The translations under genes and the position numbers were made by a program. From contig JAKLET010000030.1 in the NCBI GenBank assembly GCA_022711595.1, positions 1-48,400 on the forward strand: a DNA stretch of 48,400 nucleotides, read 5' to 3'. Positions 17,902-22,150 of the stretch are shown here, in pieces (within the stretch, counting starts at the first letter, position 1; each line of letters begins with the position of its first letter). Source of the stretch: Deltaproteobacteria bacterium. GTDB taxonomy: Bacteria > Desulfobacterota > Syntrophorhabdia > Syntrophorhabdales > Syntrophorhabdaceae. The notes beneath the pieces are model-generated. The model was not told the origin of the DNA. It did no database searches and worked only from the letters and a program-made list of their open reading frames with translations.

Positions 17902-17930
17902 ACAGTCGAACAGAGATGAGAGAATAAAAA

Positions 17931-17957
17931 GGCCCGGCGGAGAGAAACCACCGGGCC
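17931..17957 (-). terminator. rho-independent terminator (minus strand)
   Basis: GGCCCGGCGG (17931-17940), 7-base loop, CCACCGGGCC (17948-17957); 9 of 10 positions pair. Read on the minus strand the stem is followed by TTTTTATTCTC, a good termination tract, so it should end the 22150-18082 quinone/transporter operon. On the plus strand the following bases (TGAACATTTGTT) are a poor tract, although the hairpin may still protect the mRNA of the 17569 gene. Confidence 0.85.
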
Positions 17958-18081
17958 TGAACATTTGTTCCTCTAATTGCCGTCCATTGTCTCATGCAGG
18001 TGAAGCTCGGTCCCGGTCTTCCCGCGCAGCAGGACCTGTTAAATCCGTGCTAAGGGTTATCATGATATGATCATCGGTTGT

Positions 18082-18972
18082 TTAGAAGATGATCCCCGCG
18101 ATGATGGCGAGGCCGCAAATAAAGTAGATCATACGGATATATTTTCCGTAACCGTCAAGCAGGACCCAGTCATCGGTTGAGATAACGATCCTGGCGAGTT
18201 TTGCAAAGATGACGATAGTGGCAAGAGAGAGCAGCGCAAAGGGTGAGATCACCCCCATGAGGACAAGGGCGATGATCGCCGCATAGATGAGAACAAAAAA
18301 AATAATGAGTCCCCAAAAGGATCCCCTCCTGCCGAGCCTGACGGCAAGGGTGATCTTGCCCGAAGCCTTGTCAGTTGTCATATCGGGGAGACTCTGGTAG
18401 TAGAGGATGGAGGCCACCATGAGGCCGACGGGAATGGAAACGAGAAGGGGGGAAAGCGCCGGCGCACCGGTCACGACCCAGTATGTGCCGACAACCATTA
18501 TCGGCCCCATGTTCATACCTACGAAGAGCTCGCCCAGCCCGTGATAACCGTAACGGACAGGCGGAGCCACGTAGAAATAGCTACTGAACGCGGCGAAGAA
18601 TATGGGAACAGCAAGAAGGTAGAGCCTGAGCCCGAAGATAATGATGAACGCGATGATGAACGCGATGATGTAGAGGGTAATAATGACCCTGAGCATGGTT
18701 TGCGGGCTTATCTTGCCTTCCTGTATGACCCGGGAGCCGCCTATCGACTTGCCCGCGTCGGTTCCTACAAGATGATCGAAATAGTCGTTGGCAAGATTCG
18801 TTATGAGGTGGACGATGAGAGAACCGAAAAGAACGAGGAGAAAACGACCGGGCCTTGCCGCTCCGAGCACCTTGATGGCCATTGACCAGCCGATGAAAAG
18901 AGGGATAAAGGTGGCCACGAAGAAGGGTGCCCTGCTTGCCTGCACCCACGCCTTCAGGCCGCCGTTTTTCAT
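18082..18972 (-). CDS. menA: UbiA-family prenyltransferase, probable DHNA polyprenyltransferase
   Basis: A 296-residue membrane enzyme with about eight to nine helices. The first Asp-rich motif NLANDYFDHLVGTD and the downstream SLPDMTTDKASGK carry the two Mg-diphosphate-binding sites of the UbiA superfamily. The context GGSRVIQEGKIS is typical of MenA-type proteins, which join 1,4-dihydroxy-2-naphthoate and a polyprenyl diphosphate. The UbiE methyltransferase lies directly upstream with a 4-base overlap, supporting a quinone role. A 4-hydroxybenzoate prenyltransferase role is less likely in an anaerobe. It is the last gene of a five-gene coupled operon, with a terminator at 17931. Confidence 0.88.
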   Translation of the reverse strand: MKNGGLKAWVQASRAPFFVATFIPLFIGWSMAIKVLGAARPGRFLLVLFGSLIVHLITNLANDYFDHLVGTDAGKSIGGSRVIQEGKISPQTMLRVIITLYIIAFIIAFIIIFGLRLYLLAVPIFFAAFSSYFYVAPPVRYGYHGLGELFVGMNMGPIMVVGTYWVVTGAPALSPLLVSIPVGLMVASILYYQSLPDMTTDKASGKITLAVRLGRRGSFWGLIIFFVLIYAAIIALVLMGVISPFALLSLATIVIFAKLARIVISTDDWVLLDGYGKYIRMIYFICGLAIIAGIIF

Positions 18973-19733
18973 AAAGCCTTTTCTCCCGGTTTGGTTCCCG
19001 TGTGAAGGTAGGTTACACCGAGAGTGAGCGGATATTTCCTGACGTCTGTCATCCCTGCATTTTCCATCATGGCCGCGAATGCATCGGGCGAAGGGAAGTT
19101 CATGATGGAATCAGCAAGATAATGGTAAGCGGCAGGGTTGGGTGAGAACCATTTCGCCATTCGAGGGAGGATGCAGTTGAGGTAGACATGGTAAACGAGC
19201 TTGAACAGCCGGTTTTGGGTGAAGGTCATCTCAAGCACCATGACGCAGCCTCCCGGAACGGTGACGCGGAGCATTTCCCTGAGCGCCCCTTCACGATTCG
19301 GGATATTGCGGATGCCGAAAGCGACAGCAACGACATCAAAGGAATCGTCACGGAAGGGAAGGGTGAGGGCGTCGGCCTGGGCGAGAGTGATGTGCCGGGC
19401 AAGCCCCTTCTTTTCAACCTTATTTTTTCCGAGTTCGAGCATTTCAAAGACAAAATCGATACCCGTCACCGATATTTCGTTATATTTGCGGCAGGCATCA
19501 ATGGAGAGGTCGGCTGTACCGCAGGCAACATCGAGGAATCTATTTGTGTTGAAAAAACGCATCTTTTTAACGGCGAAACGGCGCCATGCGATGTCCCTGC
19601 GCAGGCTCAGGAGGTGGTTGAGGAAATCATATTTCCTCGTAATGGTGGAGAACATTTCTTTCACCATGCCGATGCGTTCTTGCTCGGATGTGTCGCGCAC
19701 CGAAGGGTATTTGTTGTCTACAGATCTTTCCAT
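18969..19733 (-). CDS. ubiE: demethylmenaquinone methyltransferase UbiE/MenG
   Basis: A 254-residue class I methyltransferase. Motifs are the family opener MVKEMFSTITRKYDFLNHLLS, SAM motif I FLDVACGTADLS, the post-motif TGIDFVFEML, the UbiE hallmark AFGIRNIPNREGALREMLRV, and YHYLADSI near the C-terminus. It performs the last step of menaquinone synthesis (C-methylation of demethylmenaquinone with S-adenosylmethionine). GGAAAGGAAA lies about 10 bases before the ATG. The gene overlaps the end of the ABC permease gene by 16 bases and the prenyltransferase start by 4. Confidence 0.94.
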   Translation of the reverse strand: MERSVDNKYPSVRDTSEQERIGMVKEMFSTITRKYDFLNHLLSLRRDIAWRRFAVKKMRFFNTNRFLDVACGTADLSIDACRKYNEISVTGIDFVFEMLELGKNKVEKKGLARHITLAQADALTLPFRDDSFDVVAVAFGIRNIPNREGALREMLRVTVPGGCVMVLEMTFTQNRLFKLVYHVYLNCILPRMAKWFSPNPAAYHYLADSIMNFPSPDAFAAMMENAGMTDVRKYPLTLGVTYLHTGTKPGEKAL

Positions 19734-20464
19734 TTGCAGAATTTCCTTTCCAGAAGCTCGAATATTTCGTACATGACGATGCCGATGATAGACAGAGAAA
19801 TGATCCCCACGAACATGGTGGCATATTCGGCCCGCCCCCAGGAGTCGATGATGTAGAAGCCGAGGCCTTCATTCGTGGCTATGGATTCGACGAAAAAAAG
19901 GACCGCCACCGCCGTTCCCGTGCCGATGCGAAGCGAGGTGAAGATGCCCGGCAGGCTGACAGGCCATACCACGTGAAGGAAGAAATCGAATCTGTTGCCG
20001 CCTAAGGATTTCAGCGAGTAAATGATCTCCCGGTCGATCTTGCGTGCGCTGTCCCGGGTGGTTATGAGAAGCTGAAAAAAGATGATCATGGCAAGCAGGA
20101 CGATCTTTCCTGTATCACCCAGACCGAAGAGGACAAATATAACGGGCATAAGGACGATCTTGGGGATAGGGTAGCCGAGATAGATGAGAGGGGAAAAGAG
20201 CCTGTCGAGCCTCGCGTTGCTGCCAAGGATGAGCCCGACCGGTACGGCAAGGATAAAGGCGGAGACAAGTGCGGCAAGCAGCCGTAGAGTGCTTGCCTTA
20301 ACGTGGACCCAGAATTCGGATGTCGCTGCTTCTTCAAATCCCCGCAGGAAGACCTTGAGCGGGTCGGGGAGGATGTTGCTGCCCAGCAGAAGGGAGAGGA
20401 CATACCACAGGATGTAGATGAACGCGACCGTCGACACATAGATGGCGATGGTGCGCCTTTTCAT
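19718..20464 (-). CDS. ABC transporter permease, SsuC/TauC type
   Basis: A 248-residue permease of the BPD_transp_1 family with about six helices. The EAA coupling loop is recognisable at IIYSLKSLGGNRFDFFLHVVWPVSLPGIFTSLR. The profile is that of nitrate/sulfonate/taurine/NMT1-type importers. It overlaps the ATPase gene by 4 bases and the UbiE gene by 16, so the transporter and quinone enzymes are made from the same mRNA. Confidence 0.9.
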   Translation of the reverse strand: MKRRTIAIYVSTVAFIYILWYVLSLLLGSNILPDPLKVFLRGFEEAATSEFWVHVKASTLRLLAALVSAFILAVPVGLILGSNARLDRLFSPLIYLGYPIPKIVLMPVIFVLFGLGDTGKIVLLAMIIFFQLLITTRDSARKIDREIIYSLKSLGGNRFDFFLHVVWPVSLPGIFTSLRIGTGTAVAVLFFVESIATNEGLGFYIIDSWGRAEYATMFVGIISLSIIGIVMYEIFELLERKFCKWKDL

Positions 20465-21219
20465 TCGAACTCCTCCAGGATGTTCCTCAATGCCGTTGTG
20501 CGTTCGAAGAAGAGCGGTTTACCCCGGTATTCGATACTGCCCATTTCGGGGTTTTCAACGACGGCGCCGATCCCGTGGTTTTTGTTGTCAAGGACAATGA
20601 TCCTGCGTCCCAGGAAGACGGCCTCTTCGATATTGTGTGTGACGATAACGAAGCTGAACTTGCGTTGACTGAACACGGCAAGGAGGTTATTCTGCAGCCT
20701 TTCCCTCGTCACCGTGTCGATAGCCGCGAAGGGTTCATCAAGAAGGAGCAGAAGCGGGCTGAGCAGCAGCGCTCTGGCGAGGGCGACCCGCTGTCGCTGT
20801 CCGCCGCTGAGTTGGGCGGGGTACAGGTGGTCAAGGCCTTCAATGTCGAGTTCTTTTTTGACGGAGGCAAGTTTTTTTGCAGAAATCTCGATCCCCTGAA
20901 GTCGTGCTCCAAGTGCGATGTTTGCTCCGGCCGTTTTCCAGGGGAAAAGCCCATAATGCTGAAGAACAAGGGCGATCTTGCGTTCCGGGGCCGACAGAGG
21001 ATGTCCCTGAAAAGCCACAGTACCTGTTGTGGGGGGGAGCAATCCGGCCAGGGCCAGCAAAAGAGTTGTTTTGCCGCACCCCGAAGGGCCGACTATGGCA
21101 AGACAGTCACGAAAGGAAAGCTCAAGATCGATCCCGCTGAGGACCGTTTTTGTCCGGTTTTCATCCTGGAATGTCTTGCCGAGTCCCCTGGTGACGAGAA
21201 ATTCACCGGACGAAGCCAT
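20461..21219 (-). CDS. ABC transporter ATP-binding protein, SsuB/TauB type
   Basis: A 252-residue ATPase. Walker A is GPSGCGKT, the Q-loop is ALVLQHYGLFPW, the signature is LSGGQRQRVALARALL, Walker B is LLLLDEPFAAID, and the switch His is in IVTHNIEEAVFLG. I start it at the ATG at 21219 (MASSGEFLVTRGLG), which matches family N-termini and overlaps the binding-protein stop by 17 bases. An upstream in-frame ATG at 21315 lies deep in that gene and would add 32 atypical residues. It partners with the permease at 19718. Confidence 0.9.
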   Translation of the reverse strand: MASSGEFLVTRGLGKTFQDENRTKTVLSGIDLELSFRDCLAIVGPSGCGKTTLLLALAGLLPPTTGTVAFQGHPLSAPERKIALVLQHYGLFPWKTAGANIALGARLQGIEISAKKLASVKKELDIEGLDHLYPAQLSGGQRQRVALARALLLSPLLLLLDEPFAAIDTVTRERLQNNLLAVFSQRKFSFVIVTHNIEEAVFLGRRIIVLDNKNHGIGAVVENPEMGSIEYRGKPLFFERTTALRNILEEFE

Positions 21220-22150
21220 CGGCCACCAGGTCTTTGTAAGATAGGGTTGTCTTGATGATCTTTTTACCCTTGAGCCACCGGTAGACGTCGCCGACCTGCA
21301 CCTGATCCGGGACACTCAGCCTGGGGAACCTGGGTATGGGGAAGCTCTTTTGCAGAGGTTCAGGCACCTTACAGGCCTTGTTCATGATCCCCCTCACCTC
21401 GTCGGGATGCTCATTGATGTAAGCGGAAGCCTTTTCGATGGCGGTAAGGAAGGACCTCACCGCCGCGGGGTTGTGGTCAAGAAAACTGGTGTTGAAGGCA
21501 AGAACCGTCGCTGATATGCCGCGGCCCCTGTCATCGGCAAGGGCCTTCGCGCCCTTGGTTTCGGCGAGAGTGGCCAGAGGCTCGGGCAGGAGTGCCCCGG
21601 AAACCTGGTCGGAAAGGAGCATCTGCATACGTATGGGGATACTTTTGATGTCGACAAGCCTGGTCGATTCGCGGGGGACTTTCTTCAGTGCCAGGAGACG
21701 TACGGTGAGGTATTCCGTTATGGTGTTCGATCCCGTGGCTATCCCTGACCCTGCGACTATGGCCAGGTCCTGCTGTTTCGCCTTGGGCGAGGCGAGAATG
21801 GCGAACATACGCTGTTCCCCGGTGGTATTGAAATTGGTTGCGACCATCTTGATCTTCGCGCCGTTTGCCGCGAGGACCGCGGGGGTCATGATGTCGCCGA
21901 AGTAACCGGCTATCTGTCCCGATGTGAAGGCGATGTCTTTTTCCATGGCGGAATTGAAGGTTACGATCTCAACATTCAAGTCCTGTTCTTTAAAAAAGCC
22001 TTTTTCAGAGGCCACGAAAAGAGGCAGTGATTGGAGGACGGGGATGGTGCCGAACTTGAACGGCTGCGTCTTTTCAGCCGCCTGAGAAGCGGCGGCGATA
22101 AGGAGGGTGATAAAAAGAACGAAAGCAATAAAAAACTTTCCCGGCTTCAT
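21203..22150 (-). CDS. NMT1/THI5-like ABC transporter substrate-binding protein
   Basis: A 315-residue periplasmic binding protein. The signal peptide (1-24, cleavage near SQA-AE) is followed by FKFGTIPVLQSLPLFVASEKGFFKEQDLNVEIV, typical of NMT1-type proteins that bind nitrate, sulfonates, thiamine precursors, aromatic acids or riboflavin-like compounds. The same fold is used by the menaquinone enzymes MqnA and MqnD. The domain linkage GSGIATGSNTITEYLTVRLL is also typical. It is the first gene of the operon with ATPase, permease, UbiE and the MenA-like protein, so a quinone-related ligand is an attractive but unproven idea. Confidence 0.88.
   Translation of the reverse strand: MKPGKFFIAFVLFITLLIAAASQAAEKTQPFKFGTIPVLQSLPLFVASEKGFFKEQDLNVEIVTFNSAMEKDIAFTSGQIAGYFGDIMTPAVLAANGAKIKMVATNFNTTGEQRMFAILASPKAKQQDLAIVAGSGIATGSNTITEYLTVRLLALKKVPRESTRLVDIKSIPIRMQMLLSDQVSGALLPEPLATLAETKGAKALADDRGRGISATVLAFNTSFLDHNPAAVRSFLTAIEKASAYINEHPDEVRGIMNKACKVPEPLQKSFPIPRFPRLSVPDQVQVGDVYRWLKGKKIIKTTLSYKDLVADGFVR

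Follow-up and report, generated by a model that had tools for sequence, protein, structure and literature searches.

The window analysed here, a stretch of 48,400 nucleotides from contig JAKLET010000030.1 of an uncultured member of the Syntrophorhabdaceae related to the phenol-degrading Syntrophorhabdus (assembly GCA_022711595.1; genome G000, hereafter the window genome), carries an operon of five genes in which an ATP-binding cassette (ABC) importer is followed by a UbiE/MenG methyltransferase and a MenA-type prenyltransferase (Table 1). Reading from 22150 down to 18082, adjoining genes overlap by 17 (substrate-binding protein/ATPase), 4 (ATPase/permease), 16 (permease/UbiE) and 4 bases (UbiE/MenA), and a single terminator hairpin, running from 17958 to 17930 on the 3′ side of MenA, serves all five. 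An earlier reading of the same DNA (the original prediction) had described just this arrangement, and each open reading frame is found where it had been placed. The operon is flanked by unrelated genes, encoding an OmpA-type protein, an HpaB-type hydroxylase, a coenzyme A transferase, an M48 peptidase and a CHASE2 cyclase.

Table 1. Features of the importer–menaquinone operon, with positions in the window and the basis for each assignment (pLDDT, predicted local distance difference test).
Feature	Position	Strand	Basis
Substrate-binding protein (NMT1/SsuA-type, signal peptide)	21203..22150	-	PF09084/PF13379; TIGR01728 below cut-off; model pLDDT 93; top fold SsuA, Z 29
ABC transporter ATPase	20461..21219	-	PF00005; TauB/SsuB-like models below cut-off
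ABC transporter permease (BPD_transp_1)	19718..20464	-	PF00528; TauC/SsuC-like models below cut-off
UbiE/MenG demethylmenaquinone methyltransferase	18969..19733	-	TIGR01934, 245.4 bits (cut-off 158.35)
MenA-type prenyltransferase (putative DHNA polyprenyltransferase; DHNA, 1,4-dihydroxy-2-naphthoate)	18082..18972	-	PF01040; top NCBIfam models MenA, below cut-off; NDYFDHLVGTD motif
Intrinsic terminator closing the operon	17930..17958	-	Hairpin of 11 pairs, 9 of them GC; TTTTTATT tail

The binding protein is an NMT1-type, type-II periplasmic binding protein (PF09084, 54.7 bits over a threshold of 20.5), and none of the three importer components reaches the cut-off of a sulfonate or taurine family: the binding protein scores 78.8 against 163.5 bits for SsuA_fam, the permease 115.6 against 342 for TauC, and the ATPase 179 against 357 for TauB. 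UbiE is the single match of its kind in a search of the window genome. The prenyltransferase falls within the UbiA superfamily (PF01040, 99.9 over 34.2 bits), with its affinity lying clearly with MenA (PRK06080.1-3, 149 bits) over UbiA (ubiA_other, 29 bits) and with UBIAD1 as its sole relative in the PDB (E 6e-20); from these scores it appears to be a divergent member of the MenA family, with the corresponding predicted activity. A second MenA-like protein, 28% identical to it, is encoded elsewhere in the same genome (L104:7975-8889, on G000:C56); its gene, close to those for valyl-tRNA synthetase and amidotransferase-like proteins, is conserved throughout the genus.

Conservation of the operon and the missing ring-making genes

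Within the family Syntrophorhabdaceae, 17 genomes link the three importer genes to MenA and, in most cases, also to UbiE; in G001 only the permease-UbiE-MenA end is visible, at a contig edge. Gene order varies across the family, with UbiE coming first in G004 and the locus lacking UbiE in G028 and G033, and the window's junctions (overlaps of 17, 4, 16 and either 4 or 1 bases) recur in relatives down to ~50% identity, so that the conservation of the overlaps, proposed at the outset as a check, is borne out. Because the same junctions recur at this distance, and because the linkage outlasts rearrangement of the gene order, the five-gene arrangement is not a matter of chance. A scan of named genomes found the operon also in Desulfobacterales, in Syntrophus-like metagenome-assembled genomes (with MenA before UbiE), in one Neomarinimicrobiota and in two Chloroflexota.

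We judged the absence of pathway genes by protein-family searches. At 3.5 Mb the window genome is listed as 100% complete, and in it these searches gave no match to MqnA or MqnD (MqnB, MqnC and MqnE not being searched genome-wide), and neither a MenD nor a MenB over its cut-off (MenF, MenH, MenC and MenE likewise not being searched genome-wide). The sensitivity of the searches is adequate, since those for MqnA/D were positive in three more members of the family, one of them of the same genus, as well as in control genomes. MenA and UbiE are thus intact in a genome from which these ring-making genes are absent. This outcome favours the original prediction, which had proposed looking for menFDHCEB or mqnABCD; a complete quinone pathway elsewhere in the genome was not found. 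The same holds more widely, with MqnA/D present in none of ~30 genomes carrying the MenA-linked operon, and MenD in none of the 27 in which it was sought. A classical pathway in G044 and G060-G062, where MenB scores 320-334 bits (below 342.7), was considered and set aside, MenD being absent there.

Second importer, fusions and binding-protein clades

The only other close homologue of the importer in the window genome lies on another contig (G000:C9, L034), in the order mqnL-mqnP-binding protein-ATPase-permease-small open reading frame-ubiX; its UbiD protein exceeds the menaquinone-decarboxylase cut-off (560.8 against 495.9), and its UbiA protein exceeds that of the subfamily containing MqnP. 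In G009, of the same genus, mqnL-mqnP-ubiX sit instead beside mqnB, two MqnC/MqnE-type radical S-adenosylmethionine genes (each scoring a little short of its own equivalog cut-off) and a pair of MqnA/D-family genes, with no importer. The three shared genes are 84, 82 and 79% identical between the two genomes, respectively, and because these orthologous ‘tail’ genes flank the importer in one and stand with the mqn set in the other, ring-making genes and importer change places within a single genus. About 26 genomes, spread over several families, have an importer beside mqnL/mqnP; MqnA/D-family matches occur in three of these (G305, G398 and, with a single match, G071). Separately, G029 has a solitary binding protein belonging to the window's clade right behind mqnL-mqnP (L044:4660-8002, on G029:C15), without an ATPase or permease of its own, which suggests that an importer is shared by two binding proteins.

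Seven genomes encode permease and prenyltransferase as an in-frame fusion, the prenyltransferase being of the MenA type in Chloroflexota and of the MqnP type in several phyla. The Herpetosiphonaceae fusion comprises 559 residues (BPD_transp_1 at 75-246 and MenA-type UbiA at 279-517) and its gene adjoins its own ATPase and binding protein; the MqnP-type fusions, in six genomes (L132, L134, L052/L131, L236, L242 and L244), mostly have ubiX and a UbiD gene after them. As fusion occurs with both types of prenyltransferase, the gene structures say that importer and prenyltransferase would work on one substrate flow. A 609-residue UbiD-type protein at L132, entertained as an additional fusion by way of its C-terminal part, was rejected, Pfam showing UbiD domains only.

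In a tree of the binding proteins, one starred clade is MenA-linked and includes that of the window, with mqnL/mqnP-linked and fused proteins placed elsewhere; partner labels cluster more strongly than in any of 500 shuffles, and partner switches are few (L044, L121 and L226). The MenA-linked importers of Chloroflexota branch far off, among generic NMT1 proteins, and this placement suggests that the Chloroflexota recruited a distant importer to MenA independently. In a sample of 395 genomes from the phylum, MqnA/D and an importer linked to late genes tend to exclude one another (3/29 versus 214/357; Fisher p 1.5e-7, uncorrected for kinship). Six families (f1, f34, f35, f41, f51 and f57) hold both states, that is, importer without MqnA/D and MqnA/D without importer, with one exception in f1 (G020), which has both.

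The predicted model of the window's binding protein matches SsuA best (over 277 residues, at Z 29.0); other matches are thiamin-precursor proteins, PqqT, MqnD (Z 20.6) and MqnA (Z 16.9), and the fold shared with MqnA/MqnD had been anticipated from the sequence. The likeness is that of the general periplasmic-binding-protein fold and says little about the ligand, and we dropped it as ligand evidence on finding that SsuA, NrtA, CmpA and Thi5 score equally or higher. PqqT, amongst the nearest folds, binds a quinone cofactor (PMC12124388). Glu70, Asp72, Asp86, Phe116, Arg174 and Trp292 are retained in every clade; Arg114 is retained in MenA-linked and most fused binding proteins, and not in unfused mqn-linked ones. 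We take these as candidate residues of a site for carboxylate and ring, rather than as proof that there is one.

What the importer may carry

Bringing these findings together, we propose that the operon very probably serves menaquinone-precursor salvage, that is, the dedicated import of a soluble ring acid, most likely DHNA, for prenylation at the membrane. The periplasmic binding protein would capture the dihydroxynaphthoate ring acid released by neighbours, and permease and ATPase would bring it into the cell; we infer the direction of transport from the presence of a binding protein. MenA, perhaps taking the ring acid directly from the permease, would then join it to its polyprenyl tail on the inner side of the membrane, the carboxyl group being lost in the process, and UbiE would methylate the ring to yield menaquinone. 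The paralogous importer on C9 may play the same role for 1,4-dihydroxy-6-naphthoate, the ring acid of the futalosine route, and as the genome has a single UbiE, this one enzyme would serve both routes. The scavenging of a naphthoquinone precursor, as originally suggested, thus gains support from the missing MqnA/D and MenD, from the lack of a MenB over cut-off and from the conserved overlaps, with DHNA as the probable ligand.

Several observations weigh against this proposal. The window's prenyltransferase misses the MenA equivalog cut-offs (149.1 against 264 bits, and 97 against 102 for TIGR00751). Three genomes (G020, G305 and G398) carry the importer together with MqnA/D, and in G020 importer and UbiE are kept with no MenA. 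Six related importers for which flanks are available do not lie beside late menaquinone genes, and all six belong to MqnA/D-positive genomes. G268 has a true MqnC (L234:1-978; 498 bits against a cut-off of 428) just upstream of its mqnL-mqnP-importer cluster, without MqnA/D, which could be either a relic of pathway loss or a sign that an earlier intermediate is imported. Finally, UbiE (in some cases along with a distant MenA-like protein) occurs without importer, MqnA/D or MenD in G008, G017, G018, G027 and G034-G036; a strict rule that late steps imply either importer or ring pathway fails on these UbiE genes, and from such relatives we conclude that there are other routes of entry, or else relic genes. 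No alternative importer was found among the neighbours of UbiE in the relatives with neither route. Genes can go unseen in draft genomes.

Two further observations concern UbiE in these relatives. In G008 (L281:2815-8565), orthologues of the window's flanks (CHASE2 cyclase, SH3 protein, M48 peptidase and a 470-residue protein) run directly into a lone UbiE, which suggests that importer and MenA were lost at this very locus. Some Syntrophorhabdaceae have a second UbiE (L291:5325-7810, L297:4328-7510, L293:6340-9534, L295:6234-7049 and L296:6657-7418), closest to MpqE, the methyl-plastoquinone methyltransferase, against which the four that were scored reach 268-277 bits (cut-off 335). In L291, L293 and L297 it is adjoined by a cytochrome b5-like protein and a divergent member of the UbiA family, and L297 also has an oxidase-like gene close by, possibly pointing to a quinone of high potential in organisms presumed to be strict anaerobes.

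It is also conceivable, if unlikely, that the importer feeds MenA and UbiE with a ligand other than DHNA, such as 1,4-dihydroxy-6-naphthoate, decarboxylated 1,4-naphthoquinol, menadione or a conjugate. The binding-protein family serves both MenA and MqnP/MqnL partners, with the few switches listed above, so its specificity may be relaxed; however, its clades track the type of prenyltransferase, and MenA enzymes act on the 2-carboxylate, whereas the 6-carboxylate route requires an MqnL/UbiX decarboxylase that the window's cluster lacks.

We consider it improbable that the quinone genes are passengers beside an importer for an unrelated or catabolic aromatic compound (a sulfonate, taurine or 4-hydroxybenzoate), with the ring arising by an unknown route, even though the nearest folds and families are SsuA/TauA and Syntrophorhabdus degrades phenol and 4-hydroxybenzoate via UbiD/UbiX-type enzymes (PMC5946492). 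Against this stand a linkage that spans phyla, several gene orders and fusions, the loss of ring-pathway genes where that linkage holds, and a UbiD beside the second importer that passes the menaquinone-decarboxylase cut-off. Least probable is supply of the prenyl side, as a short isoprenoid; being a substrate common to MenA and MqnP, it would account for association and fusion with both, but it leaves the loss of ring genes and the mqn exchange within one genus unexplained, and SsuA-like binding proteins of solved ligand take small polar anions.

Returning to salvage of a ring acid, we lean, with rather less assurance than for the window's operon itself, towards a broader view: an ABC importer family for soluble menaquinone ring acids, with sub-families matching the two ring isomers and import physically coupled to prenylation (by a single polypeptide in seven genomes or more), would have arisen at least twice and repeatedly replaced the whole upstream pathway, implying a ‘cross-feeding economy’ for vitamin K2 in anaerobic communities. 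Such bacteria probably take up half-made vitamin K2 from their neighbours, through a transporter that has been predicted without being named. These operons supply concrete candidate importer genes for both flavours of the pathway, and lead to the prediction that many syntrophic anaerobes rely on neighbours for their respiratory cofactor; DHNA suggests itself as a culture supplement for such syntrophs, and the fusion proteins allow a direct test of transport-coupled prenylation.

Relation to known systems

For bacteria that have only menA and menG, e.g. Porphyromonas pasteri, DHNA has been proved to act as a growth factor (PMC9704088), and Ravcheev and Thiele (2016) predicted that bacteria limited to menAG would require importers of DHNA, then unannotated, and called for their identification (PMC4746308); a 2026 survey of quinones notes genomes with neither known pathway (PMC13386864). 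We found no named DHNA importer in the open-access literature, subscription papers lying outside this search. P. pasteri and the gut genomes of Ravcheev and Thiele keep the same two last steps as the window, but no importer has been named there, whereas here one is physically attached to both genes.

SsuABC and TauABC resemble the window's system in binding-protein fold, in permease and ATPase families and in their gene triad; in contrast to these, the window's proteins miss all of the NCBIfam equivalog cut-offs, and the partners to which the importers are linked or fused are menaquinone prenyltransferases rather than proteins of sulfonate metabolism. The end-steps of the futalosine pathway (MqnP, MqnL and UbiX) are carried by the window genome's second cluster, where the importer replaces MqnA/D. 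Alike in logic are the NMT1 importers of cofactor precursors, namely the thiamin/hydroxymethylpyrimidine-binding proteins and PqqT for pyrroloquinoline quinone, which have the same fold and likewise scavenge a half-made cofactor (PMC12124388); they serve other cofactors, however, and are without a known prenyltransferase partner or fusion. What is new here, we suggest, is a familiar kind of ABC import of cofactor precursors, applied to a new cofactor and with an unusual physical coupling to prenylation.

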